IMG/VR virus record: IMGVR_UViG_3300044611_001951
Coordinates: 1 to 52,937 of that record
Direction: 5' to 3' (one strand)
Length of the DNA stretch: 52,937 bases
DNA from: a virus
The notes under the pieces are model-generated. The model did not search any database, had not been told where the DNA came from, and saw nothing but the letters and a program-made list of their open reading frames with translations. Position numbers and translations under genes: made by a program. Below are positions 20,204 to 48,800 of the stretch, one piece after another; the first letter of the stretch is position 1; every line of letters starts with the position of its first letter.

Positions 20204-20263
20204 ATGAACGAGACACATCGTAGCCGCTTGGGCGGCCGGCGCAATACCGGGGTTCGCCTATGA
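20204..20263 (+). CDS. 19-residue leader peptide, translationally coupled
   Basis: ATG at 20204, preceded by GGAG at about ten bases, encodes an Arg-rich 19-mer (MNETHRSRLGGRRNTGVRL) whose stop overlaps the ATG of the replication gene (ATGA). The main gene has no Shine-Dalgarno sequence of its own, so coupling through this peptide would explain its translation. It could also be chance; only the ribosome site and overlap support it. Confidence 0.4.
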   Translation: MNETHRSRLGGRRNTGVRL

Positions 20264-21138
20264 GCGCGCCCCAAAGTCGGGAGCCTCTCCCGTGGTTTCG
20301 GTTCGACGTGGCCGAGGTCGCCACAGCCCGCGGCGGGATGCGCGTGCTCGGCGATGACGCCGCGCTCGCCGCGATGATGCGCTTCGCCTGGCGCTCCTGG
20401 CGCGAGGGTCGTCTCACCGAGGACGACGCGCGCCAGACGTGCGGCGCCGGGTTCGAGACGCTGCTCGCCGCCATGCTCGAGCGCGGACCCGACGGGCTGC
20501 TGTCGCTGCCCTGGATGGAGGCCGCTCGGACCGAGGCCGACGCCTACCGGCTCCAGCAGCGGGAATCCGGCCGTAGGGGCGGCATGGCGAAGGCTGCTAA
20601 TGCCAAGCGACCCTCTAGCGACCCTACAGGCTCGCTTAGCGACCCACTAGCGAAGTCTACCCAGGAGAGGAGAGTAGAGGAGAGTAGAGATTCAGCCCTA
20701 CAGAGTGCTTCGCACTCTTCCGGGCTGGAGCCGGCGCCTCGCGGCGCGTCTCCGGGCGAACTCTTCGAGAACCCGAAGAGGCCCAAAACCGAGGCGAAGA
20801 AGGGCGAGCACGTCCAGGCGGTGGAAATGTTCCAGCGGGCTTGGGCTCGCATCCGGCACGGCGACCTCACGGTGACGGTCAAGACCGACCCGAAGGACAT
20901 CCCGCCGGCTGAGCGGTACACGCCGACCGCAGCGGACTTCATCCACGCCGCGAGGCTCTGGAAGCGCATTGGCGGCGACACGGCCCTCCTGCGCGAGCGG
21001 ATGAGCAACTTCTTCCAGAGCGATGCGCCCTGGATTCGGGCGGGCGGCTTTGCGCTGTTCGCCACCAAGTTCGATCTCCTGACCGACCCGATCATGGCGC
21101 TGAACGGCAGCAGCAGCGCCCAACACACCGAGAGCTGA
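20260..21138 (+). CDS. Replication-initiation candidate, DUF1376-like
   Basis: 292 aa. The N-terminal 75 residues (PLPWFRFDVAEVATARGG, then ALAAMMRFAWRSWREGRLT) resemble the winged-helix start of DUF1376 and replisome-organiser proteins. They are followed by the basic, small-residue linker typical of these proteins (SGRRGGMAKAANAKR) and a C-terminal helical domain (RMSNFFQSDAPWIRAGGFAL). Proteins of this build bind phage origins and recruit host helicase. It is the first full gene of the plus unit. No helicase or primase is encoded nearby, which fits recruitment of the host replisome. Assignment is by pattern. Confidence 0.5.
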   Translation: MSAPQSREPLPWFRFDVAEVATARGGMRVLGDDAALAAMMRFAWRSWREGRLTEDDARQTCGAGFETLLAAMLERGPDGLLSLPWMEAARTEADAYRLQQRESGRRGGMAKAANAKRPSSDPTGSLSDPLAKSTQERRVEESRDSALQSASHSSGLEPAPRGASPGELFENPKRPKTEAKKGEHVQAVEMFQRAWARIRHGDLTVTVKTDPKDIPPAERYTPTAADFIHAARLWKRIGGDTALLRERMSNFFQSDAPWIRAGGFALFATKFDLLTDPIMALNGSSSAQHTES

Positions 21139-23907: not shown

Positions 23908-24090
23908 GTGCCCATGGGACCCAGCCCAAATTTCCCGGCGCGGGCAAAACGATACGGGACTCCAGCGAGCCTCTGCATGGGACCCAGAGCGGAGGATGGC
24001 GGGAGAGGAGGGATGAGGGATCACCCTACGCCCTCCACCGCCAAAACCCCCCGGCCACCCCTCCCCGCCCCGGTCGCGCGCGCCCCGACG

Positions 24091-24185
24091 GTCCAGGATC
24101 TGGATTCCAACTCTTGGACTCGCTGTCTGGAAGCTGGACGGACGGGCTGTCCAGCGGTTGGACGCGAGCGGTCTGGGGATTGGAC
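24091..24185. repeat. Cluster of YTGGAC/GTCCAG hexamers (iteron-like)
   Basis: Within 95 bases there are TTGGAC at 24114, 24158 and 24180, CTGGAC at 24134, and the reverse form GTCCAG at 24091 and 24149. Spacing is uneven (20-24 bases between several neighbours, close to two helical turns). Six copies in both orientations is well above what the base composition leads one to expect by eye. Confidence 0.55.
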
Positions 24186-24473
24186 GGGTTGCGGGCTGGC
24201 GATGGGCGAGAGGGGAGAGCGGGCGGGCTGGTGGATGATCCGTCCCGCCATCCCGTCCTCCGATCCGATCATCCGCTCCGAGGCTTGCGCACCGGTCGAT
24301 CCGATGCGAGCAGCGGTCCACGCTCCGAGCATCCGTGCGCAGGATGCGAGCGACGGAGCGGCGCAGTGTGCGGAGTGTCGTAGGTGGACACGTTCGGCCA
24401 CGCTGCTTCGCCGTGCCAGCGTGAGGACACCCGGCCTCGCTGCGCTCAGCGCCGCCCGGCTAAGACAGCGCAC

Positions 24474-24696: not shown

Positions 24697-24933
24697 ATGC
24701 AAACTCTCTCTATCACTGCGCAGACTCTCGCGCAGGCCCGGCGCAACATCGCGCAACGTGTCGCACGGCGGCGCGCTTCTCGCTTCGCTGCGATGGGCGG
24801 AATGATCCGCCGGACGCCCGGCCGCGTGCTCAGCCGACTGTGCGCAACGTGCCTCGCGGCCGAGCTTCCCAGCGTCACGAACGCCGCCGAGGTTTACAGC
24901 CTCGCCTTGAGCCGTCGGAGCGTGCAGCCGTGA
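24697..24933 (+). CDS. Small basic protein
   Basis: 78 aa from ATG at 24697, with AAGGA seven bases upstream. The N-terminal half is a basic amphipathic helix (TLAQARRNIAQRVARRRASR), followed by a Cys pair (LCATCLAAELPS). It overlaps the next gene by GTGA. It opens the block that leads to the MoxR-VWA pair. The coupling of four genes in a row (24697-27918) suggests one functional module. Unknown function. Confidence 0.6.
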   Translation: MQTLSITAQTLAQARRNIAQRVARRRASRFAAMGGMIRRTPGRVLSRLCATCLAAELPSVTNAAEVYSLALSRRSVQP

Positions 24934-25238
24934 AGCTCGACAAGCAAACGCTGGCGTTCACACGCCGCATGGAAGCCGGCCGCGCACGCCGCGCCGCATC
25001 CGCTCGGCTCGAACTTGAAGCCAACTCTTGGATGATCGGCGCGCGCCCGATCGAACGCCAATCGACGGCCGCGCCGAGCGAGTGCGCGAATTGCGCTCGG
25101 CCGCTTCTGGCCGCGCGCGTTGAAGTGACGTACCGCGCCGACAAGGGCCGGGAATGGCGCGAGCACGTATGCCGCCCTTGCTGGAACGCTGACGTGTCCT
25201 TTGAGTTCCGCGCCTCGAACCGGGAGCTTGGACCGTGA
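24930..25238 (+). CDS. Zinc-ribbon-like small protein
   Basis: 102 aa from GTG at 24930 (GTGA overlap at both ends). The N-terminus is a basic helix (TRRMEAGRARRAASARLELE). The C-terminal half has CANC and CRPC pairs about 35 residues apart (SECANCARPLLA ... REHVCRPCWN), a plausible zinc ribbon. It immediately precedes the MoxR-type ATPase, which carries its own N-terminal Cys/His cluster. It may act with that ATPase. Family not recognised. Confidence 0.7.
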   Translation: MKLDKQTLAFTRRMEAGRARRAASARLELEANSWMIGARPIERQSTAAPSECANCARPLLAARVEVTYRADKGREWREHVCRPCWNADVSFEFRASNRELGP

Positions 25239-26701
25239 GCCATCTTCCCTACAGCGCGCAGCCGCGCCGCTACGAGCGCTCGCGCTTCCCTGGCGACTGC
25301 TGGACGTGCGGTCAGAAGTACCCCGAAGGCTCGGACGTTCTCTGTCTTCCCGAAGGCTACGAGTACCCGAAGGGCCACGCCAAAGCAGGCAAGCGCGTCG
25401 GAGTCTACGCGCACCACGCCTGCGGCTTGCCCCTCGTTCCGACGCCGCCGAAGGAACGCGAAACACCTATCAACACCACGCCCACGCCGAGCACGCCCGC
25501 CCCGATGACGACGACCACACACCACGCCCACAACGGCACGCCGCAGCGCGCGCCCGCAGCGCCGAGCACTGGAGGTAACGCGCTCGACGCGCTGGCGCAG
25601 GAGCTAGCGTCGCGCATGGGAGGCTTGCTCCCGCCGCCCGCGCCGAGCACGGACCCGGCGCAGGTTGAAGAGATCGTGCGCCTCGTGAACGCGCCGCTAG
25701 AGTCGCGCCTCGCCGCGGTCGAAGCACGCCCGCAGTACGACAGCGAAGCGCTCGAAATGCACGCGCGCCGCGCCGCGTTCGACGAAGCACGCGCGGCCCT
25801 GGTCGAAGTCACGGCCCGCGCCAAGGGCGGACCCGTCGCGCTGGTTGGCGAGATCCCGACGCCGGACCCGCTCTACCACGACGCGAGCGACACGAGCGCC
25901 GAGATTCGAGCGATGCTTGCGCGCCAATCTCACGCGCTGGTCAGCGGCCCGAGTGGTAGTGGCAAGACCTACCCGATCCTCCAAGAGTGCGCCCGCGCAG
26001 GCCGCCGCGCCGTCCTGGTCAGTTGCGCGGACGGAATCACCTACAGCGCGCTTGCGTGCCGGCCCTCGCAGACAACGCCGAGTCTCGAATACCGCTACGG
26101 CCCGTTGCCCCTCGCCATGAAGGCCGGCGCAGTTCTCGTCTTGGACGAGTGCGACAAGCTAGACCCGTTGCTCGCCGCACTGTTTCACGCGCCGCTCGAG
26201 CCCGACACCACGCGCAGGACTCTGTATCTGCCCGAGACGGGAGAGACAATCACGGCCGCGCCCGGCTTCCAAATCGTCGGCACTTGCAACGGATTGAGAG
26301 ACGAGTCGGGAAGCTACTCTTCGCACCGGATCGACGCTGCGTTTCTGACTCGCTGCCGAGGGATCGCAGCCGACTACCTTTCACAATCGGAAGAGGCTGC
26401 GCTGTTTGAGCGCGCCGGCCTGGACGCTGCCCGCTCGCGCAAGCTCGCCGAGACGCTGGCGAAGCTCCGCGCCGAGCACCTGAAAGGGAACCTCACGATC
26501 CCGCCGAGCACGCGCCTCGGCGTCCAATGGCTGCGGATGGTGCTCGGACGCGATGACGCCGGCCGCGCTGGCGTGGACGCCATCCCGCCCAAGACCGCTT
26601 GGCGCCTCGGCATCCTCAACTTGCTCACGCCGGGACAGGCAACGAACGCGGCCGCCATCATCAAGCCCGAAGATGCAGGCTGGAAGGTAGGCGCCACGTG
26701 A
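25235..26701 (+). CDS. MoxR/CobS-type AAA+ ATPase with N-terminal zinc finger
   Basis: 488 aa. N-terminal Cys/His cluster (C22, C25, C37, H60/H61, C63), then a Thr/Pro-rich linker and a helical spacer. The AAA+ core has Walker A GPSGSGKT at 238-245, Walker B VLVLDECDK with D304/E305, and sensor-1 asparagine N352 (QIVGTCN). The pattern with 'RIDAAFLTRC' as arginine-finger region follows CobS/MoxR ATPases, which remodel targets with a VWA partner. The partner is the next gene, overlapping by GTGA. GTG start at 25235. In cobaltochelatase the pair inserts cobalt; the phage pair probably has another client. Core function is sure, client unknown. Confidence 0.85.
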   Translation: MSHLPYSAQPRRYERSRFPGDCWTCGQKYPEGSDVLCLPEGYEYPKGHAKAGKRVGVYAHHACGLPLVPTPPKERETPINTTPTPSTPAPMTTTTHHAHNGTPQRAPAAPSTGGNALDALAQELASRMGGLLPPPAPSTDPAQVEEIVRLVNAPLESRLAAVEARPQYDSEALEMHARRAAFDEARAALVEVTARAKGGPVALVGEIPTPDPLYHDASDTSAEIRAMLARQSHALVSGPSGSGKTYPILQECARAGRRAVLVSCADGITYSALACRPSQTTPSLEYRYGPLPLAMKAGAVLVLDECDKLDPLLAALFHAPLEPDTTRRTLYLPETGETITAAPGFQIVGTCNGLRDESGSYSSHRIDAAFLTRCRGIAADYLSQSEEAALFERAGLDAARSRKLAETLAKLRAEHLKGNLTIPPSTRLGVQWLRMVLGRDDAGRAGVDAIPPKTAWRLGILNLLTPGQATNAAAIIKPEDAGWKVGAT

Positions 26702-27918
26702 AACTCACGCCCCTACAGCGCCGCCGAACGCTCTACCGTCTCGCAGACCTCTACCAGAAGGCGCAGCGCGAGCACCCGACCGAGACGCCGGCGCAGCACC
26801 ACGCGCGCGCCTTCGCGTGGATCGGCTGCGAGCAAGACTTCGCCAACCACGCCGCGCGGATGCGCCTTAACCAAGCCGACCGACTGGCGAAGTGGACGAA
26901 CGAACAGGCATCGCCCAAGACGTGGAAGAAGCCGAAGAACGGCCGGCCTTTCACACTGCCCGAGTTTCCCGGCCTGGACAGCGCCCCGAAGGGACGCACG
27001 CCCACGGTTCGCGTTGTCGGCCAGATCGACGGCCACGGCCAGACGTTCCAAGCAAGCCCGAACGCGCTGCCCGATGGCGCGAACGTGCTTCAACTCACGA
27101 ACGCGAAGGTCAACGGAACCTCGCCGCCCGCAATCGTGCTCGACCCGCTACAGGCTGGACCGCAGCCCGGCGCAGCCGTGGACTACACCGGAGAGCCGAC
27201 GCTTCGCGCCGCGCTGGTCGATGCACTGCGGGAGCGCCGACGCGGGCGCGAACTGCGCAACCAAGACGCAGGCGAGCTCGACCTGTCACGAATTGCCCCG
27301 ACCGCGCTCGGACTGGACCTTGACCGCGCGTTCGCGCGCCGCATCCGACCCGACGTGCGCGGCGTCGCCGTGCTAGTGCTGGTCGATGCCTCTTCGAGTA
27401 TGCGAAAGGATGGGCGCGGCGTCGCAGCGAAGCGCGGAGCGTGCCTCGCATATCGGGCGCTGACGCGCGAGCGAATCGCCGTTAGCGTTGCTCAGTACGG
27501 CGCGCGCGAAGAGACAAGCGATCCAGCATTTGCAGTAGTCGCCGCGTTCGGCGCTCCACAGTCCCAAGCGATGGCGGATCTACACGATATGCCCGAGTGG
27601 CGTTTTGTGTGGACGCTCGCGCCCAGAGCGACCGAACGCGCCGCCGAGATCCTCGCTCGCCGCAGCGAGCCGAGGCGCGTGCTCATGTTCCTTTGCGACG
27701 AGGACGTGACCGCCGATGATCCCGCATGGAAAGCGGCGCGCGCCGCTGGCCTGGAGCTTTGGCCGATCCTGCTCGGAGTGCAGGCCGCCGCCGGGCGCGA
27801 GAAGATCGACGCGGCCGGATGGTCAAGCATCCCGCCGATTGTCGCCGAAGATCCCGCCGAGCTTGTCCCGACATGGACCCGAGCGATGCGCGCCCACCTG
27901 GGCCGCGTCGCAGTGTGA
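26698..27918 (+). CDS. VWA-domain protein, CobT-like partner of the AAA+ ATPase
   Basis: 406 aa from GTG at 26698, overlapping the ATPase stop. The C-terminal ~190 residues form a von Willebrand A domain with a complete MIDAS start, D230-A-S232-S-S234 (VLVLVDASSSMRKDG). Central strands follow (RIAVSVAQYGA, RVLMFLCDEDVTADD), and a short end. The N-terminal 200 residues are charged, like the acidic/basic region before the VWA domain in CobT. MIDAS metal binding normally mediates contact with the client protein. Encoded as a translationally coupled pair with the MoxR-type ATPase. Confidence 0.85.
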   Translation: MKLTPLQRRRTLYRLADLYQKAQREHPTETPAQHHARAFAWIGCEQDFANHAARMRLNQADRLAKWTNEQASPKTWKKPKNGRPFTLPEFPGLDSAPKGRTPTVRVVGQIDGHGQTFQASPNALPDGANVLQLTNAKVNGTSPPAIVLDPLQAGPQPGAAVDYTGEPTLRAALVDALRERRRGRELRNQDAGELDLSRIAPTALGLDLDRAFARRIRPDVRGVAVLVLVDASSSMRKDGRGVAAKRGACLAYRALTRERIAVSVAQYGAREETSDPAFAVVAAFGAPQSQAMADLHDMPEWRFVWTLAPRATERAAEILARRSEPRRVLMFLCDEDVTADDPAWKAARAAGLELWPILLGVQAAAGREKIDAAGWSSIPPIVAEDPAELVPTWTRAMRAHLGRVAV

Positions 27919-27955: not shown

Positions 27956-28555
27956 ATGACCACGCAACGCAGCACCACAGGCCCCGACCTCGTGACCGAC
28001 CAGCACGCCTACGAAGTCAAGACCGCCGCCAGCGACGCCGAGAAGCGCGCGAACATGCAAGCCCAGATTGCCCACGCCCGCGCAGTGATCGACGCACAGC
28101 ACGACGAGGAGACAGATGATCGCGGAGTGCCCACAGATGCAGCTTGGGAACGCGAAGAGGCTGCGATGCGCAGCGCCCTTCCGATCGTGGACGCGAACCG
28201 GCTCGCCCGAGAAATTGTTTACTTGCTGGAAGAGAACCAACCCGTGGGCGCCGCCGCCAAACTCGCCGGCCTGCCCGCCTCGCAAGCGCTCAGCGTCGCG
28301 CTCGCGCTGGACTGCGCGCGCCACCAACGCGCCGCGCTCCGAATGGCCTACGACGCCAACGAACGCGAGACGCTGGAGAGCGAGGAAGAGCACGCGGACG
28401 CGCTCGCCGCAATTGCGAACGACATCGCAGACCGACTCGCGCAGGACGATTGCGACGAGGCTCGACTCGTCGAGGACATCGGAGACCAACTCGCGTCGAT
28501 CGGCTACACCGTCACGCCGCCGAGCGATTTCTTCGCCGAACCGCCGAGCGCCTAG
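27956..28555 (+). CDS. Hypothetical acidic helical protein
   Basis: 199 aa from ATG 27956, 37 bases after the VWA gene. It is strongly acidic and helical (EKRANMQAQIAHARAVIDAQ, then ANRLAREIVYLLEENQPVGA, then SEEEHADALAAIANDIADRL). No cysteine cluster or catalytic motif is apparent except one Cys pair region (CARHQ). It ends the MoxR-VWA block, so it may be an accessory or client protein of that pair. Unknown. Confidence 0.7.
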   Translation: MTTQRSTTGPDLVTDQHAYEVKTAASDAEKRANMQAQIAHARAVIDAQHDEETDDRGVPTDAAWEREEAAMRSALPIVDANRLAREIVYLLEENQPVGAAAKLAGLPASQALSVALALDCARHQRAALRMAYDANERETLESEEEHADALAAIANDIADRLAQDDCDEARLVEDIGDQLASIGYTVTPPSDFFAEPPSA

Positions 28556-28674: not shown

Positions 28675-28705
28675 CGTCAGGCTGAATACTTCGCCCTCCC
28701 ACGTT

Positions 28706-28747
28706 GGCCCGTTGCCGTCCGAATCCCGGACCGCAGCGGGCCTTTTT
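28706..28747 (+). terminator. Intrinsic terminator
   Basis: GGCCCGTTGC-CGTCC pairs with GGAC-CGCAGCGGGCC (28706-28742) with two imperfect positions, followed by TTTTT (28743-28747). It closes the block that contains the MoxR-VWA genes. The 300-base gap 28675-28974 holds this, a repeat of its core, and a weak promoter-like TACACT at 28926-28931 before the next gene. Confidence 0.8.
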
Positions 28748-28778
28748 CGTTTGGCCTGGCGCCGTCCAAATCCTGGAC
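28714..28778. repeat. Duplicated palindromic element GCCGTCC-AATCC-GGAC
   Basis: Two 18-base copies at 28714-28731 and 28761-28778 differ at two positions (GTCCGAATCCCGGAC versus GTCCAAATCCTGGAC), period 47. Each is an imperfect palindrome with GTCC/GGAC half-sites. The first is the apex of the terminator hairpin. The second can form its own weaker hairpin with flanking GGCC. May also be an operator pair. Confidence 0.6.
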
Positions 28779-28974: not shown

Positions 28975-29241
28975 ATGACGAACACTCCCGCCAGGATTCG
29001 CGCAGGCTTCAAGTACCTGCTGAACGACGGCTTCACAGAAGCTTGGATTGCTGGCCCCGCCAAGTGCGCGCCTTTCGATGGCCTTGCCGTTTTTTACTCC
29101 GTGCAAGGCGACTGGTTCCTAGAAGATGGTCGGCGACTTGGATTGCGCGCTGATTTGGACGGCGCGACAACTCGGATGGTGTTGTCTGCGGACAACTGGC
29201 GCTCGATCAATCTCGCCACCGAATCGGAGCGCGATCAATGA
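28975..29241 (+). CDS. Small hypothetical protein
   Basis: 88 aa from ATG 28975 with GAGGA about eight bases upstream. Sequence features a beta-rich core (RIRAGFKYLLNDGFTEAWIA, LAVFYSVQGDWFLEDGRRLG). First gene of the recombination block. Overlaps the next gene by ATGA. Not recognised. Confidence 0.65.
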   Translation: MTNTPARIRAGFKYLLNDGFTEAWIAGPAKCAPFDGLAVFYSVQGDWFLEDGRRLGLRADLDGATTRMVLSADNWRSINLATESERDQ

Positions 29242-29619: not shown

Positions 29620-30576
29620 ATGACGCTGCAAATCTTCAGCACCACCGCAGAGTGGCTCGCTGCGCGCAAGCACTCAATCGGCGCTTCGGAGTCTCCCGCG
29701 CTGATGGGCGCTAACCCGTGGCGCGGATCGTTCGCTGTGTACGCCGGCAAGGTCGGCGAGCACGAAGAGGAAGAGACGAGCAAGATGCGCGCGGGCCAAG
29801 TGTTCGAGCGCGCCATCGCCGAGTTCTACGCCATCGAGCGCGATCTCCAGTTGCTCACTCCGCTGGATCGTGCGCGGCGAGACGATCCCGAGCTTGAGGC
29901 TGCGCCCTACGAGGCGCGCGTGATGTGGCGGGCTCCTGGCTCGGTGCTGGCGTGTACGCCCGACTTCTTCGTCAGCGATGGCGCAGAGGGCGAGTGGCCC
30001 GTCGAAGTGAAGCGCGTGGACCCGGACCAATCCCCGAAGTGGAAGGAAGGCCCGCCGCTGTACTACGTGCTCCAGGTGCAACACCAGCTCGGCGTGCTGC
30101 GCGCGTGCGGTATGCAGTACGACGAGGCTGTGCTTGTTGCGGACTTCGGGGGCGATGACGTGCGGCCGTACTACATCCGCTTCGACGCCGAACTGTGGGA
30201 GCTGATCGTTCGGACGTGCGAGTCGTTCTGGCTCGAGCACGTCGGACCGAAGAACCCGCCGGCGGTCGATCACCTGACGACGCCGGAGGACGTTGGCCGA
30301 CTCTACAAGCGCGCCGTTGTCGGCTCGACGGTCGAAGTACCTCTCACGCTGCTTGCGCGCTACCGCGACCTCAAGGCGCAGGAAAAGGCGCTGAGTGAAG
30401 CGCTGGAGCAAGCCCAGGCTGCGCTCAAGGCCGCCATCGGCGAGCACGAAGGCGCGACAGTCGGCGGCGTGCTGTGCGCAACGTGGAAGGAGCGCGTCGC
30501 CAACATTCCGGCGAAGGCCGCCACGGTATCGAAGTCTCGCCCGCTGCTGCTGACGAAGGCGGCGCAGGGCGTCTAA
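29620..30576 (+). CDS. YqaJ-type viral recombinase exonuclease
   Basis: 318 aa. The N-terminal signature HSIGASESPALMGANPW (G21-A-S23-E24) is typical of YqaJ/lambda-Exo-like nucleases. Catalytic PD-(D/E)XK residues are visible as D115 (ACTPDFFV) and E129-V-K131 (PVEVKRV), followed by the Q-rich helix of the fold (LQVQHQLGVL). It degrades one strand of double-stranded DNA ends to feed the annealing protein encoded next. The C-terminal 90 residues are a helical extension (LKAQEKALSEALEQAQAALK). Confident on fold and role. Confidence 0.88.
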   Translation: MTLQIFSTTAEWLAARKHSIGASESPALMGANPWRGSFAVYAGKVGEHEEEETSKMRAGQVFERAIAEFYAIERDLQLLTPLDRARRDDPELEAAPYEARVMWRAPGSVLACTPDFFVSDGAEGEWPVEVKRVDPDQSPKWKEGPPLYYVLQVQHQLGVLRACGMQYDEAVLVADFGGDDVRPYYIRFDAELWELIVRTCESFWLEHVGPKNPPAVDHLTTPEDVGRLYKRAVVGSTVEVPLTLLARYRDLKAQEKALSEALEQAQAALKAAIGEHEGATVGGVLCATWKERVANIPAKAATVSKSRPLLLTKAAQGV

Positions 30577-30615: not shown

Positions 30616-31824
30616 ATGGAACAGACCGACAAGATCCAGACCCAACAGGCGCAGGCCCCGCGCGTGGACCTGAGCATGATGGGCTTGCAGCCGACGACCT
30701 TCGACCAGCTTTGGGCGGCGTCGCAGGCGCTCGCCAAGAGCGACGTTGTGCCCGTCGCGTACCGCGGCAAGCCCCACAACGTCCTGGCGGTCGGGATGCG
30801 CGGCGCCGAGATGGGCGTCTCGTTGCTCGTGGCGCTCGGCGAAATGCACGTCATCGACGGCAAGGTCGGGATGAGCGCGGACCTGCTCGTTGCGCGAGTG
30901 CGCGCTTCGGGGAAATGCTCCTACTTCAAGCTGCTCCAGGTCACGGACGAGATCGCCAAGTACGAGGGCAAGCGCTCGGACACGGGCGAAGTCCAGGCGA
31001 TGGACTACACGCTCGCCGAGGCGCAGGCCGCGGGGCTGCTCGGCAAACAGAACTGGAAGGGCAACCGGCGCGCGATGCTGATGGCCCGCGCTTCGGCCCG
31101 CTTGGCGCGCGAGCTCTGGCCGGACGTGTGCGTCGGCCTGTACGTCCGCGACGAGCTCGACGAGATCCGCTCGCAGACGCCCGACGCCGCCGTGCAGGCG
31201 ACCTCGCGCCCGACGACGATCGACGCCGTGAAGGCGCAGGCCCGTGAACGCCTTGGGATCGCTCAGGCTGCGTCTGCGCCGCAGGCGACCTCCGAGCCGC
31301 GTCAGGCAGAGATCGTGCAAGGCGCGCAGGCGCAGGCGTTCCCGCCGCCGCCGGACGACCACGAGGACGCCGAGGCGTTCTTCGGCGACGCGCCGCGCAA
31401 CGAGGAGCCGGATGGCTCCAACGCTGGAGACCTGCCGGATCAGGAGCCGCGCACGCCGGCGCATCCGCTGGTGAGCCCGGCGAACTGGTACGCGCCCGAC
31501 ATGGGCGGCGTGGACGTGAACGACGGCAGCGAGCTCGAGCTTCGCCTTCCCGCGCGCATCGACAACTTCGGCGCGCTGATGCACGAAAACGTCTGGAGTT
31601 CGGGACCGCTCAAGGCGTGGACTCCGGCTCAGGCGCTCCAGGGCGGCGAAGGCGGCGGGCGCCACACTCTGCTGCGCAAGGCCGTGGACTTCGCCGTCTC
31701 CAAGCGCTTCGAGCCTCACCTGATCCCGCGCGGCGCGCTGGTCGCCGACTGGTGCCTCGCGCTGCTCGAGCGGCGCTACGCGCTGATGCGCGCGGCCGGC
31801 CTCGCCACGAGCGACGAAGCCTAG
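30616..31824 (+). CDS. RecT-like single-strand annealing protein with C-terminal extension
   Basis: 402 aa. The first ~180 residues follow the RecT family: VLAVGMRGAEMGVSLLVALG, KVGMSADLLVARVRASG, then YTLAEAQAAGLLGKQNW and RAMLMARASARLARELWPDV with GLYVRDELDE, the signature helix pair before the annealing core ends. An acidic, Pro-rich linker (about 200-290) leads to a further folded domain (ARIDNFGALMHENVWSSG, VDFAVSKRFEPHLIPRGAL). RecT proteins are usually about 270 aa, so the extra domain is noteworthy. It pairs with the exonuclease to give a complete Exo/SSAP recombination system. Confidence 0.82.
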   Translation: MEQTDKIQTQQAQAPRVDLSMMGLQPTTFDQLWAASQALAKSDVVPVAYRGKPHNVLAVGMRGAEMGVSLLVALGEMHVIDGKVGMSADLLVARVRASGKCSYFKLLQVTDEIAKYEGKRSDTGEVQAMDYTLAEAQAAGLLGKQNWKGNRRAMLMARASARLARELWPDVCVGLYVRDELDEIRSQTPDAAVQATSRPTTIDAVKAQARERLGIAQAASAPQATSEPRQAEIVQGAQAQAFPPPPDDHEDAEAFFGDAPRNEEPDGSNAGDLPDQEPRTPAHPLVSPANWYAPDMGGVDVNDGSELELRLPARIDNFGALMHENVWSSGPLKAWTPAQALQGGEGGGRHTLLRKAVDFAVSKRFEPHLIPRGALVADWCLALLERRYALMRAAGLATSDEA

Positions 31825-37419: not shown

Positions 37420-37571
37420 TCGCCGCCGTCGCCGTCGTGTGCCTGCTCGCTTGGGCCGCGTTGCTTCTTCGCGCGCGTCTCCAGCGGCGAGAAAGGCAGC
37501 GCGAGCAACTTGCGCAGCTTGACGCGCTATTCCAAGAAGCGAAGCGCGAACGCGCGCGAGGTGGGGCGTGA
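37416..37571 (+). CDS. 51-aa membrane-anchored coiled-coil protein
   Basis: ATG 37416 (ATGA overlap). N-terminal membrane span (IAAVAVVCLLAWAALLLRAR) followed by a basic, Gln-rich helix (LQRRERQREQLAQLDALFQE). N-in topology with charged coil resembles i-spanin anchors but it is too short and not paired with a lipoprotein. Unknown. Confidence 0.6.
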   Translation: MIAAVAVVCLLAWAALLLRARLQRRERQREQLAQLDALFQEAKRERARGGA

Positions 37572-38278
37572 GCAAGCCGCTCGCTGTGGACCTCTTCTGC
37601 GGCCTCGGCGGCTGGTCGGAGGGACTGCTCGCCGAGGGCTACGACGTAGTGGGCTTCGACATCGAGCGCCACGTCTACGGCGAGCACCGCTACCCCGCGC
37701 AGCTTGTGCTGCAGGACGTGGCCACGATTCACGGCGCGCAGTTCAAAGACGCCGCGCTCATCGTCGCAAGCCCGCCGTGCCAGGCGTACAGCTACCGCGC
37801 GATGCCGTGGAGTCGAGCTCGCGCGCTGCCCCCGCCCGACAACACGCTCTTTGAAGCGTGCTTCCGCATCCAACGCGAGGCGTGCGAAGCGGCGGGGCGT
37901 CACATCCCGATGGTCGTCGAGAACGTCCGCGGCGCGCAGAAGTGGGTCGGCCGCGCGCACTGGCACTTCGGCTCGTTCTACCTGTGGGGCGACGTGCCGG
38001 CGCTCATGCCGATTGCTCGCCGCGCCCACAAGAACCCAGGCTTTCGCTTTGACGGCAGCGGCCGATCGTTCCAGTCTGAGAGCGTGAACCGCGCCACGAA
38101 GAACACCGGCGGCTCGTGGTTCAACGTCGCGCACAACACGACGAGCGGCAAGGGGCGGAATCCTGATGGGCGCAAGACTGGAGCGCCCCGCAAGTTCGCC
38201 AGCGCGATGATCGCCAAGATCCCGCTCGTGCTGTCGCGCCACATCGCGCGCACGTACAAGCCCAAGGCGAGCGCGTGA
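37568..38278 (+). CDS. DNA cytosine-5 methyltransferase, compact
   Basis: 236 aa from GTG 37568 (GTGA). Motif I DLFCGLGGWSEG (D8-F10-C11-G12), catalytic motif IV SPPCQ with C71, and motif VI ENV (E118). The C-terminal motif X is degenerate (SAMIAKIPLVLS in place of a GNAVPP-type sequence), and the target-recognition region is short. It would methylate cytosine at C5 using S-adenosylmethionine, probably protecting phage DNA from host restriction. No partner restriction enzyme is encoded. Confidence 0.85.
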   Translation: MSKPLAVDLFCGLGGWSEGLLAEGYDVVGFDIERHVYGEHRYPAQLVLQDVATIHGAQFKDAALIVASPPCQAYSYRAMPWSRARALPPPDNTLFEACFRIQREACEAAGRHIPMVVENVRGAQKWVGRAHWHFGSFYLWGDVPALMPIARRAHKNPGFRFDGSGRSFQSESVNRATKNTGGSWFNVAHNTTSGKGRNPDGRKTGAPRKFASAMIAKIPLVLSRHIARTYKPKASA

Positions 38279-42804: not shown

Positions 42805-45800
42805 TCACCTGCGGAGAAGGGCTTGGTTGAGTGCGGGACCGCCAGACAGCTCCGGCTTGATGCCTCGGCGGCGCAGCGCGGCGGCTGCGTCGTCGGTCAG
42901 GACGCCCGGCTTGTAGCCGTAATCGTACAGTCGGCGTAGCACCTGCTCCCACTGCTGGAAGCGCACCGTCCCAACAGTGGGTTGCTGCACGGCGCCGAAG
43001 AAGATCGCGGCGTAGTCGTGGACGGCCTCGCGGTCAGGGGTCTTGCGAACGACCTCGCGGTCAAGCCAGTTCAGCATGGCCTGGCCGGACGGGTCGCGCA
43101 TGGCGTTGGTGATCGCCTGGCGGAAGAAGTCGGGCCGCATCGCCCGGCGACGCGCGAGCTCGAGCGACGTGCTGGCGACGCGCGACCACTCGTCAGAGCC
43201 GACGAAGCGCGTGAAATACTCGCTCATGCGCTGGCGCTTCTCGGGGTCCGGCTCGCGGCGGATCAAGGTCTGCATCGCGCCCTGCTCGCTGAACATTTGC
43301 GGCAACAGCCAGGCGTCGAACGTGGACATGGAGCGTCCACCGCGCAGCCACGAGTCGTAGGCCCCGGAGAGAACCTCGCTCATCTGGTAGTGGATGTCGG
43401 CCTGCGCCGCTTTGAGCTTGTCCCAGAACGGGCCATCGGAGCGCGTGCTCTCGGGGAACAGGCGACCGACGATGGCCTCGAGGGCTTCGCGCTCGGTCAC
43501 GCCGCCCATCTGCGGCTGCACGAGGCGCTGCGAGCGCCACAGCGACGAGAACAGCAGTTCGCCGACGTTGCGCGCCGGGTCCGGCTGGTCGACCTGCACG
43601 ATGCCGCGCGCGTACTCCTCGATCTTCTGCCCGTTGAGCGCCGCCACTTCGATCATGCGCTGGCCGTCGCGCGAGGCGAGGAAGAACGGCGAGATCGCCG
43701 GCAGCGCGTCGCTCGCGGCGTCGCGCACGTTCTTGAGCGAGTCGAGCCACGCCTGCGGCCCTTCGCTCGTCAGCAGCTTGAGCCCGCCGAACGCGCCGTG
43801 AGCCATCGCAATCGAGAGCTCGCCGGCGCGAAGGCTCATGGCGTCGAACAGCGAGGACGCGATCTGCTCGGGCGACTTCGACGCCGCGCTTTGCAGTGCG
43901 TGGCCGGCGCCGATCCAGTTGCCCCAGCCGGGCGCGAGATCCTCGAGCGAGGACACGCGGGTCTCGTCGCCACGCGACGGCGCTTGGAAGATCAGCGAGC
44001 TTCCGCCGAGCATCGCCTTGTAGGTCTCGTTCAGCAGCGAGCGCGCCTCGTGCGGCACCATCGCGCCGCCGGTGACGTTGGGCCAGACCATCCCGATCTT
44101 GGACGCGGCCTCGAGCGTCGCCGAGTCGATGATGGGCGTCCCAGCGCGCGCCATCGAGCCGCGGAGCGCCTCCTGGAAAGACGCATCCTCTTCGGGGTCT
44201 TGCGTGCTCAGACGGTGCAAGAGGCCCGCCATCGTCGCCATGACGGCGGCCGAGCCGGCGGCGCGGATCGGGTGAGCCCCGACGCTCGCCATGAGCGGCC
44301 CGGTCATCGTGCTGGTGTACATCCAGAACCGGCCCTTGAGCGCCTCGCGCATCAGCGCGCGCGACCAGCGGCCGCCCTCGCCTTCGGCCTTCTTGAACAG
44401 CGGGTTCGAGAAGCTTGAGTAGCTCGAATTGAAGGACCGCATCAGCGGGCTGGTGTTCGCGTAGTCCGCGGTGCCGACGGCGGCGTAGCGAACGGCGTGC
44501 TCCAGCGAGATCGCCTCGGGCTGCGTGTCGATGGTGCGCAGCGTGGCGGCCCATTTGAAGGCCATTTCCCAGAGCTGGTAGAAGCCCGTGAAGTTCGCCA
44601 TCGCGCGGGCGCGCTCGTTCGCGTCGTGCGACCCGCCCAGCTTGGCGAGCGTGCGGTCGAACTCGGTGAGCCCGCCGGTCATGCGGCGCACGGTGTCGAC
44701 AGCGGCGACGCGCCAGGCCGCTTGCGACTCGACGGGCACGCCGGAGTTGCGGAGATCGCGCAGGAGCCCCGCCGTCGTGATGTCGGGCGTGACGGCTGCG
44801 CTCATCGCGTCTGTGACGACGCTCGCCTCGATGCCGACGCCGGTGAACGTCGTGCCGTTCAGCGTGCGGAAAGCCTCTTGGAGAAGCTGCACGCGCTCCC
44901 ACTGCTCGTTTGTCCACTTCTCCGGCTTCACGTTGAGGTTGCCGGTCTTGACCAGATCCAGCAGCCCCTTGATGTCGCGCTGAGCGTCCGCGAAATACCC
45001 GCGCCCGGTGAGCACCGACTTCGCCACGTCCCACATCGGCAGCCGGTTGAGCGCGTGGTTCGACATCACGCTCGTCGTCAGGTTCAGCGTCCAGTGCTTC
45101 GGGCGCCCGATGGTGAGCCCGCGGCGGAACCCGCGCGTCGCCTGCTCGTAGGCGTACACCGCCTTGTCGACGATGGTGTCCATCTCCGGCGCGTTGAACG
45201 TCTGCCGGGTAAGCCCGTCCAATTCCCAGACGAGTTGTCGGGGCAGGTACAGCTTGCCGTCCTGCGACGGCTTCATGTCCTGGTCAAGACCCAAGTACGC
45301 GAGCAACGTGTCGGTGACTTGCTTGCTCTTGGGGCGGCCGCTCGCGGGGTCGAGTTGCTCCTTGAGCAAGTTCCCCATGACGATCGACTGAGCGCGCGCC
45401 GGACCGTTGCTGAGGTTGGCCTCGGACGGGCTCGCGCCGACCACCTCGAGCGTCACGGGCTCGTAGACGTTCTGCGAGTACGGGTCGAGCTTGCTCCACT
45501 GGCGCTCGGTGATCGCGTAGCCGCCGTTCTTGAGGTCTTGCAGCACTCCGAGGTACTGAATCGCCTTGGCCTCCTGGTGCGTCACCACAGAGAGCCACAC
45601 GAACGGATCTTCGATTTGGACGCGCGTGATCCCGTCTTTGGACTCGGGGCCGCGCGCCATATTGCGGCCGGCGAACGAGGGCAAACGACCCTCGCGCAGT
45701 TCCTTCACGATGTCCTGGTTCTCCAGCGACAAGTAGAGGTGCGGGACGTAGCGCCCGGCGTTCTTCTCGATCTGCTTGGGGTCGAGGTAGCCGAAGCGCG

Positions 45801-48800
45801 CGGCGGCCTGGCCGAGCCGCGTCATGACGTCGCTGACGTCGCGCGCGAGATCGAAGAGGTAACCCGAGCCCTTGCGGTAGCGCTCGAAGTCCTGCGGCCC
45901 CTTCATTTCGGCGAAGCGCCCACTCTCGATGGCCCACTGGAGCAGCTTCATGTCGGCCGACGGCGGCGCACGGAACCCGAAGCGCTCGGACAGCGCCGCA
46001 AGTGCATCCTCGCCGCGGGCGCGAAGCATGTCGGAGAACTGTTCGCGCGAGCCGAACACGCGCATCGCCGCGGACTGGATCGTCGCGTTGTTCACGCGGC
46101 CGACGAAGTTGCCGCTCCACATTTGCCCGTAGAGCGCGCCGACCTTGAGCAGCGCCTTGTCGAACGCGGGCGAGATCCACTTCTTCTCGCGCAGTCCGTC
46201 CATGCGGCGCTGCAAGCTGAACGCGCGTTCGAGCGGCGTCTGGCGGAACTCCCACGGCGAGCGGTTGAAAGCGATCCACGGCAGCGCGGCGCCCTGCGGC
46301 GCGTTGAGGCGATGCTCGCCGACGTGCTCCAGGGCGCGCAGCGCCATCTCGTTCTGCGCGTGCGAGCCCAGCGCCGCCGACGCGAGCAGGTCCATGCGGC
46401 CCTTCGCGTCCGTGAGTCCGGCGGCCTTCATCCGCTTGAGAAGCTCAGGCGAGATCGGCTCGGTCCCCTGGCGCGCGTCGGCGTACTCGAACGCCAGCGG
46501 CATCCGCTCGCGGATCTTGCCCTCGGGCAGCGAAGAGAGGATCGCGTCACGCGTCTGCGCCTTGGCGCGCTGCGCGGCCTCCACGGCGAAGGTGAACGCC
46601 TCCAGCGATCCACGCGCCTCGAAGTGCTGGCGGTACGACTCGCCTCCACGCGCCAGCTCGATGACGGCGTTGTGCACGTCCGGGCTGTCGTAGGGGATCT
46701 GCGACTCGAGCGCGCCGTGCAGCTTCATCACGTCGACGGCGGTGCGCACCGAATCGCCGGCCTGCGCGATCTTGATGGCGGGCGTGATCCGTGCGGGCGT
46801 CGGCAATCCGCCGCGCAACTCGTGCGCAACGACCTCGGGCTCGGACAGGCCGACGTACTGCGGCTTGTTGCGGTTGGCGGCGAAGATCGCGCCGCGCTCC
46901 TTGGGGCCGAGCCGCGCGAGCCGAGCCTGGAGCGCCACGTCCTCGCCGATCGGGCCGGCGTCGAAGAGGCCCTCGAGCGCCTTGCGCACGTCGGCGGGAA
47001 TCTCCACGTCGAGCCCGGTCCCACGGATGCGGCGGTAGAGCGAGCGCATCCACTGGCCCATCTGCTCGAACACGCCCTTGAGGCCCGGCGTCGGCGCGCG
47101 GCCCTGGCGGAACCAACGCTCGGCCGCATTGGCCCACTTCTCTTCCGCTCCGCGCGTCCAGTTCCCGCCGGCGGCGCCGGCCCACTTCTCGACCGCCTCC
47201 AGCGCCTTGCCTTGCAGGTCGCGTCGCCAGACGTGCGCGAGCTCGTGCACGATGTCGGAGATACGCGGCTTGTTCAGCGCGTGCAGTACGGCGCGGCCGT
47301 CGTTCAGGAACGTGACCGCGGAGCGCGCACCCTCGGGCGGCGGCAGCGGCGTCGTCGTGTTCGTGAAGCCCGCGATGCGCTGCGCGTACCAGTCCTCGGG
47401 CTTCGCTCCGCGCGACCTCGCCCAGACCTCGGCGTGCGCCTCCATGAGCTGCACGGCGGCCTCGGCTTCCTTCGACGGGAGGCCCGCCTTCGTGACGAGC
47501 TGCTCGACCAGCGCCTTGACGCGCTCGTTCCGGTACTCGCTCGGCGGGAACAGCGCCCCCTGGAGCTTGCCGAGCCACGCGCGCTCGACCTCCGGCGTCA
47601 GCGGCTCGACGGGGCGGCGGTCCTCGGGGAACCCGATTCTCTGCTGGCCTCGGCTGTAGGCGTTGGGGTCGGAGAAGAGGCTGGGGCCGGTCGGCTGAGC
47701 AGGAGCTTGAGGCCCTGCGCCACTGTCGCCAAAAAGACGGCCCTGTTGCGCGAGGGCTTCGAGTTCGCGGAGGGCGGATTCGGCGATCCGCTTGCGCTCG
47801 CCGGGGAGCTTGCCGAGTTCATCTGCGTGTCGGTTGAGGAGTTCATTGATGAGTGTCCCGCGTTTGCCTGCCTGCATCTCGATTGCCGAGAGCAAGGCTC
47901 CTTGGTCGTTCGCCAGCGTGCGCGCCGTCTCCGCGTCGAGCTCGCCGATGTTCTTCTCGCGCGCCACGTCGGCGTTCTTGGCGAGCGCCTTCATGGCGCT
48001 GGCGAGGCGCTTCACCTGCGGCCGGAGCTCGCTGACGATTTCCGTGCGCAGCTCGAGCATGGTTTTCACGTCGGAGCCGCCGAACAGGTCGGTCTGGCGT
48101 CCCGCGAAAACGTCCTCCGTGGCGACGCCGCGCGCGATGCTCTCGGCCATCTCGACGTTCTTCGCCGTGCGCTGGATCATCTGCGCCGCGGCAAGCTGAC
48201 GGGCCTCGTCGCCGCGCGGCACGAACCGCCCGATCTCGGCCGCAAAGTTCGCCGGGATCTGTTCGTTCACGACCTGCGCGAACACGGGATCAGAGAGCTG
48301 CGAGAGGCCGATCGCCTGCTTGGCGAAGGCGCCGCGCGCCCCAAGCTGCTCGACCTGCTCGGCCGTCCATCCCAGGTCTCGGATGACCTTCGCCACGTCG
48401 AGCGCCTTGCCGGTTCCGGCCCGCGTGTTGAGGATCGCGCCGAGCGCGCGCGCCTGGCCCGCCGTGATGCCGTCCGACTCGCGCACGACAAAGGCGTTCA
48501 GTTCGATCGGCTCGCCGCCCTGGCTGAGCCGCTTGGCTGCGTTCGTGCGCTGGTGCCCGTCGACGACCACGCGCTCACCGCTTGCGCGTTCGTAGACGAG
48601 GACCGTGCCTGCGGAGATTTCCGACCACTCGTCGCGGGACTTGAGCTTGCTGAGCGCGCCCTCGGGATCGCGGCCCGTCTTGGGGTCCGTGCCCGACTTG
48701 TACTGCATCTCCTCGGGGGCGAGCACGAGCTCGGTGGCGGGGATGCGCTCGAGCTCGGCGACGCGCTCGATGGAGCGCATGAGGTCCGGCCCCTCGCCTG

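Follow-up and report, generated by a model that had tools for sequence, protein, structure and literature searches.

A phage-encoded MoxR-type AAA+ ATPase and VWA protein with a possible role in DNA recombination or replication

What is the client of the AAA+ ATPase and the VWA protein encoded by two overlapping genes of the IMG/VR virus record IMGVR_UViG_3300044611_001951? The whole record (52,937 bases, about 68% G+C) was analysed and is called the window below. An earlier note on this DNA had described a coupled pair of a MoxR-type ATPase and a VWA protein acting on an unspecified host or phage macromolecule, and the coordinates, motifs and GTGA overlap of the pair were found as claimed. 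Our analysis tentatively indicates that the most likely client, a protein or a nucleoprotein, belongs to the DNA recombination or replication apparatus of the phage itself. The main arguments are the genes that surround such pairs in phages, plasmids and integrative and conjugative elements (ICEs), and a comparison with a close relative, IMGVR_UViG_3300042452_000717, which was the only one found among 2.9 million viral contigs. The features of the pair are as follows (all on the plus strand).

25235..26701 (+): AAA+ ATPase of the MoxR/CbbQ/NorQ/CobS group, 488 aa, GTG start, assigned by AAA_5, phrog_249 and motifs
25298..25423 (+): N-terminal motif C22-x2-C25...H60-x2-C63 in the ATPase, with a variable linker after it; the four residues are kept in the relative
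25904..26545 (+): AAA+ core, residues 224-437; residues 199-464 are 97% identical to the relative
26698..27918 (+): VWA protein, 406 aa, GTG start, overlapping the ATPase gene by GTGA; profile match to CobT-like VWA proteins
26698..27057 (+): helical N-terminal segment of the VWA protein, residues 1-120, 94% identical to the relative, in place of the HExxH domain of CobT
27346..27906 (+): VWA domain with a complete metal ion-dependent adhesion site (MIDAS), D230, S232, S234, T306 and D334

The first gene product can be classified by sequence as a MoxR-type (AAA_5) AAA+ ATPase with an adjacent VWA partner gene, and the two genes overlap in both phages. It matched Pfam AAA_5 above the cut-off (1e-10) and the PHROG family phrog_249 (1.9e-27). 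Its motif set is complete, with Walker A (G238-T245), Walker B (D304/E305) and sensor-1 (N352). An alignment of the window protein, its relative and six other AAA+ proteins from mobile elements showed that the Walker A glycines and lysine, E305, N352, R373 and R427 are invariant; R373 is a candidate arginine finger, and R427 occupies the sensor-2 position. The best tblastn matches were plasmid-borne AAA+ proteins of Cupriavidus (1e-22) and Pseudomonas (1e-14). The N-terminal cluster of cysteine and histidine residues, which the earlier note had called unusual, is real: C22, C25, H60 and C63 are conserved, even though identity to the relative over residues 1-198 is only 55%. This motif is probably a zinc-binding module.

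The second protein matched phrog_5298 (2.4e-4), and its VWA part was aligned with a profile of 12 CobT-like VWA proteins of mobile elements (hhalign 98%, E 1e-13, columns 171-408, including the segment before the VWA domain). A tblastn search with this protein against phages and plasmids gave no match, and none was obtained with residues 84-406 against phages even at E 10. In addition to D230, S232 and S234 of the MIDAS, which had been pointed out before, T306 and D334 were recognised here. All five residues are conserved in the window phage and its relative, and no variation is seen at D230, S232, S234 and D334 among the 14 members of a VWA alignment. Structure prediction had been suggested as a check of the VWA fold, and the model bore it out. 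Its top Foldseek matches were NorD VWA domains solved in the NorQ-bound state (E 2.3e-7), and VIA-align gave Z of about 15 across 163-177 residues against several VWA domains. The overall predicted local distance difference test score (pLDDT) of the AlphaFold model is 51, with residues of about 221-270 and 311-400 reaching about 65-77. The model thus supports a VWA (Rossmann-like) fold for the product of 26698-27918. Residues 1-216 were poorly modelled and barely covered by the fold search, so that no new fold is claimed for the N-terminal half.

Is the pair a cobaltochelatase? It is rather a divergent, shortened member of the viral and plasmid CobS-CobT-like group, and it is set apart from cobaltochelatase because it fails the CobS model and lacks the N-terminal domain of CobT. 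The score of the ATPase against the CobS model TIGR01650 was 26.1 bits, with a cut-off of 558.55, and the VWA protein gave no match to a CobT model. The profile of the CobT-like group matched CobT from the PDB over residues 25-617 (E 1.7e-52), and the window protein aligns only with the part comprising the pre-VWA segment and the VWA domain. Nearly all aligned CobT-like proteins carry an N-terminal HE-x2-H, and the HExxH motif is absent from the window VWA protein in the alignment. A cobalamin role, in which viral CobST and the CobN of the host would together increase B12 levels, is the published reading for viral cobST (PMC8651126), and some phage relatives (Rhizobium) do match true CobS strongly (E 1e-44). 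However, in addition to the failed models, CobN (PF02514) was found in none of 24 whole records including that of the window (5 of 14 control genomes were positive), although a CobN of the host could in principle serve. The earlier statement that no cobalamin gene accompanies the pair therefore agrees with our search, and we consider a cobalamin function very improbable.

Comparison with structures from the PDB placed Midasin first, followed by NorQ (5e-14) and CbbQ (1.5e-11), ahead of CobS (9e-7). The ATPase is thus nearer to NorQ and CbbQ than to CobS, and the fold of the VWA domain is closest to NorD. This could fit a maturation factor resembling NorQD or RavA-ViaA, which would insert metal into a host enzyme or tune it during infection. 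No metalloenzyme gene was recognised near the pair, however, and among MoxR-type AAA+ proteins sequence proximity does not tell the client. Such a maturation role seems quite improbable.

The genes downstream of the pair point in another direction. At a distance of 1.7 to 3 kb beyond the VWA gene, the following two genes are found.

29620..30576 (+): RecE/YqaJ-type recombination exonuclease (YqaJ 1.6e-15; phrog_434 7e-57)
30616..31824 (+): RecT-like single-strand annealing protein (phrog_561 1.3e-36; phrog_4171 1.5e-22)

The order of genes is the same in the relative, namely a gene for a 78-aa protein, the ATPase (80% identity), the VWA protein (72%), an acidic protein (85%), the gene at 29238, the exonuclease (67%) and RecT (56%). 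The synteny with exonuclease and RecT genes is thus present in both phages. Close relatives were searched for with the ATPase, the VWA protein, two ATPase alignments, the acidic protein, a CxxC protein encoded upstream of the ATPase, and the exonuclease. The scan with the exonuclease missed the known relative, which indicates that pattern-based scans overlook identities of about 67% and that the count of relatives is a lower bound. Eight diverse AAA cores were also aligned, but the alignment proved too divergent for use as a query, and genome contigs gave just two weak AAA matches.

This location also bears on whether the pair could be a chaperone for virion assembly that remodels structural proteins. 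Such a function was proposed for MoxR-vWA pairs of group 2.2 jumbo phages (PMC7824862) and was reported for Acidianus two-tailed virus, and the proposals were cited again in PMC7911831. In the window, however, the pair belongs to an early unit on the plus strand together with the exonuclease and RecT genes, whereas the capsid, portal and terminase genes are located on the minus strand. Moreover, elements that make no virion, namely conjugative plasmids and an ICE-like island, also carry related pairs. A role in virion assembly is therefore rather unlikely.

Regulatory signals around the two plus-strand units were analysed as well, and three features were found.

23979..24300 (+): conserved non-coding region upstream of the ATPase/VWA unit, with palindromes TCCAN5TGGA at 24092, 24106 and 24150
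28706..28747 (+): probable intrinsic terminator closing the ATPase/VWA unit, whose start is at about 24.7 kb; formed by a long G+C-rich hairpin with TTTTT after it (z -3.8 over 28695-28760)
28765..28777 (+): palindrome TCCAAATCCTGGA ahead of the exonuclease/RecT unit, sharing its motif with the copies 5' of the ATPase unit; identical in the relative (locus L011, 4475-4509)

The TCCAN5TGGA palindrome occurs 10 times in the window, with 0.36 copies expected, and five times in the locus of the relative (0.07 expected). The three upstream copies are kept in the relative (window 24092-24162; L011 141-200), so in each of the two phages both plus-strand units are preceded by the same palindrome; further copies fall within genes. 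These palindromes are candidates for the operator of a phage regulator or for RNA hairpins. Since a conserved and over-represented palindrome precedes both units, it is reasonable to infer that they may share a common regulator. The first 143 bp of the upstream region (23979-24121) are C-rich, 86% identical to the relative and more conserved than the first gene downstream; RNA folding of the upstream region gave z of -4.1. The 23979-24121 stretch is a possible origin or early promoter region. No promoter was found by a sigma-70 scan, and an Rfam search of 22.5-30 kb gave only a chance-level match. The hairpin at 28706-28747 was not listed by a simple terminator scan, as it lies outside the stem and loop limits of the scan. 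Within the window, GC skew is strongest (-0.18) at 22-24 kb.

Are such neighbours found in other elements too? About twenty lineages were read in a sample that was not random, and 24 whole records were searched for CobN, YqaJ and DUF3150. In the window, in its relative and in ICE and plasmid lineages, the ATPase gene is located within 3 kb of an exonuclease gene and near an annealing recombinase gene. The order is ssb, RecT, exonuclease, AAA, DUF3150, VWA and toprim in pMAQU02, RecT (7e-19), YqaJ (4.5e-21), AAA, DUF3150 and VWA in pPvSC3, and AAA, ssb, bet, exo, DUF3150 and VWA in a Salmonella genomic island. The window exonuclease is related to that of pMAQU02 (hhalign 90.8%). Vibrio, IncHI1 and Klebsiella plasmids contain AAA, DUF3150, VWA and toprim genes, in some cases with an ssb or helicase gene upstream, and a Pseudomonas plasmid has a UvrD-like gene followed by AAA, DUF3150 and VWA. 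Among phages, CobT and CobS are followed by DnaE and often ligase in SSU5, nickie, ANB28 and Rhizobium phages; primase, DnaB and polymerase genes adjoin the pair in Zobellviridae; and in T4-like phages the order is gp46/47, CobT, CobS, clamp and clamp loader. YqaJ was found in 6 of the 24 whole records, in five of them less than 3 kb from the ATPase gene. A rough distance test, in which lineages were treated as independent, gave P = 0.0006.

Two further observations concern the plasmid and ICE modules. In the Salmonella island, pMAQU02 and pPvSC3, the AAA, DUF3150 and VWA genes are grouped with those for annealase and exonuclease in a single block, which in two of the three also includes ssb. 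The unannotated proteins encoded just 5' of the plasmid modules (L021 6930-7751, L022 5472-7830, L029 4301-6664) are mutually related across Vibrio, E. coli and Klebsiella plasmids. They gave no Pfam match, by which a hidden annealase is neither shown nor excluded, and are candidates for divergent recombination proteins.

Several points weigh against a function in DNA metabolism. When the three related plasmid and ICE lineages are counted as a single one, the P value of the distance test rises to 0.06. In a Listeria phage, an Acinetobacter plasmid and a Cupriavidus plasmid the pair has no annotated gene for recombination or replication nearby, and the neighbourhoods in Listeria, Gordonia, Acinetobacter, Cupriavidus, Roseobacter and Microcystis elements are in general less clear or negative. 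Early genes of phages cluster anyway, which makes adjacency to replication genes in phages weak evidence. Finally, with a single close relative, two genomes are the whole basis for co-occurrence in the lineage of the window. The link between AAA+/VWA pairs and recombination or replication neighbours is thus suggestive and not proven. In the open-access literature, no paper was found that proposes a recombination role for such pairs, or that gives a function to the AAA, DUF3150 and VWA genes of the ICE and plasmid blocks.

Comparison of the two phages also allowed selection on the pair to be estimated from non-synonymous (dN) and synonymous (dS) divergence. For the AAA core (residues 199-464), dN is 0.029 and dS 0.48 (dN/dS about 0.06), which points to strong purifying selection. 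The values are 0.44 and 0.77 for the N-terminus of the ATPase, 0.032 and 0.27 (dN/dS about 0.12) for residues 1-120 of the VWA protein, and 0.41 and 1.27 (about 0.3) for the VWA domain, which evolves faster than both the VWA N-terminus and the AAA core. Because of the low dN/dS, the two genes are not chance open reading frames (ORFs). From this contrast, the conserved N-terminus may have a constant contact partner, and the faster-evolving VWA domain one that changes.

A changing client would also fit a host-directed or conflict device, in which the pair remodels a host complex or serves one element in defence against another, or in counter-defence. Ternary conflict systems with MoxR and vWA are known (PMC7159879), and one member of our survey matched the Pfam family bpMoxR. 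However, PADLOC returned a single weak match (mad8, 0.0065), located over the P-loop region of the ATPase, and neither an effector domain nor a third component of a ternary system was seen in the unit. We regard this explanation as fairly unlikely.

Returning to a client within the DNA recombination or replication apparatus, the pair is more likely to belong to DNA machinery than to be a vitamin gene because such pairs recur beside replication and recombination genes and never, in the 24 records searched, with CobN. By analogy with NorQ, the ATPase would form a hexamer. It would dock its dedicated VWA partner, with which it presumably pairs physically, via the VWA/MIDAS domain, and would then pull or twist this partner or a client held by it. 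The most likely clients are the downstream exonuclease/RecT complex or a replication complex, rather than a corrin or a host metalloenzyme. The recurrent neighbours and the downstream exonuclease/RecT operon, which the earlier note lacked, thus allow a more specific client to be proposed. It is possible, though we would not call it probable, that mobile-element AAA+/VWA pairs form a widespread and unrecognised class of recombination or replication remodelling machines mislabelled as B12 genes, with the window pair as a stripped-down phage form having a different adaptor domain. Such machines might load, recycle or disassemble annealase-exonuclease or replisome complexes.

The remaining genes of the ATPase/VWA unit are listed below.

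24697..24933 (+): basic protein, 78 aa, 13 K+R and 2 D+E, first gene of the unit; a 70% identical homologue is located directly 5' of the ATPase gene of the relative
24930..25238 (+): zinc-ribbon-like CxxC...CxxC protein, 102 aa, present in the window phage only; weak Pfam match to DUF7479 (0.067)
27956..28555 (+): acidic protein, 199 aa, predicted to be helical, 39 D+E and 17 K+R; 85% identical in the relative and the most conserved neighbour of the pair

Searches of Pfam and PHROGs revealed no family for the 78-aa basic protein or for the acidic protein, and the fold model of the latter (pLDDT 53) was too poor for use. Inspection of the sequence showed GTGA overlaps at 24930, 25235 and 26698. 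The claim that four genes are coupled by GTGA therefore stands as to the overlaps, and a conserved four-gene module was not upheld, as the CxxC gene is missing from the relative; no homologue of its product was found in the searches, including that of the viral contigs. In the relative the start of the ATPase gene overlaps the 78-aa gene with no CxxC gene between them, and the orphan gene in the window sits between the two genes that overlap directly there. A separate zinc-ribbon neighbour is thus not supported as a component, and the CxxC gene does not appear to be a conserved part of the pair. When both neighbours were checked for co-occurrence, as had been advised, the gene at 27956 proved to be retained in the relative and that at 24930 did not.

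Other genes of the window were noted in passing. A 2709-aa ORF (42805-50934, minus strand) contains a weak ParB-like segment and matches very large uncharacterised phage proteins; it is possibly a polyvalent protein. The product of a 292-aa gene (20260-21138, plus strand) resembles phage replication-initiator proteins by eye, and Pfam and PHROGs gave no significant match. A DNA methyltransferase-like gene (37568-38278, plus strand) matched phrog_363 (6.9e-15) over residues 2-126 only.

Phage records with related AAA+ genes run into the hundreds and plasmid records into the thousands. Among the phage copies, many bear the annotation cobalt chelatase or 'porphyrin biosynthesis' and are treated as B12 auxiliary metabolic genes. 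If the recurrent placement of such genes with exonuclease, annealase and replisome genes reflects function, the B12 annotation would be wrong for many copies, and the DNA metabolism of phages and plasmids would include a remodelling step that is new. The window pair, having neither the HExxH domain nor DUF3150, is a minimal form that may be useful for defining the essential core.

A comparison with known systems shows that AAA+/VWA pairs of tailed viruses are already known in kind. They were described as CobS/CobT and read as B12 genes (PMC8651126) or as MoxR-vWA chaperones for virions (PMC7824862), and AAA/vWA genes of haloviruses were described with their function unassigned (PMC7911831); the term 'undescribed system' used in the earlier note is thus not justified. 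The jumbo-phage pair (PMC7824862), proposed to act in virion assembly, is likewise a phage-encoded MoxR-vWA pair, but its VWA protein has an N-terminal metallopeptidase domain that is absent from the window. NorQ-NorD is also a MoxR-type AAA+ protein with a VWA partner, and NorD is the top structural match of the VWA domain; the criterion for that system is insertion of a VWA finger into the AAA+ pore together with contact of the C-terminus (PMC13036017). Unlike NorQ-NorD, the window has no nitric oxide reductase, and the N-terminal part of NorD was not detected in its VWA protein. The modules of plasmids and ICEs (the SXT/IncC-like Salmonella genomic island, pMAQU02, pPvSC3 and IncHI1) resemble the window in having AAA+ and VWA genes inside a recombination or replication block, with YqaJ exonuclease and annealase genes adjacent in three lineages. 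They differ in gene order and in DUF3150 (PF11348), which was found in 9 records, all from plasmids or ICEs, and is absent from the window record and its relative. The closest systems are the viral and plasmid CobS-CobT-like pairs (phrog_249 with phrog_5298, phrog_1576 or phrog_17276; cyanophage cobST, SSU5, ICP2, Rhizobium phages), which share with the window adjacent AAA_5 ATPase and VWA genes, the pre-VWA segment, the MIDAS and a location among early or replication genes. In contrast to them, the window VWA protein has no N-terminal HExxH domain and the ATPase carries CxxC/HxxC, with an identity of about 25-32% in the core. Two aspects are new here, namely the architecture, which lacks HExxH and DUF3150 and combines a Cys/His module of the ATPase with a distinct conserved N-terminus of the VWA protein, and the link of AAA+/VWA pairs with exonuclease and annealase genes across different elements.

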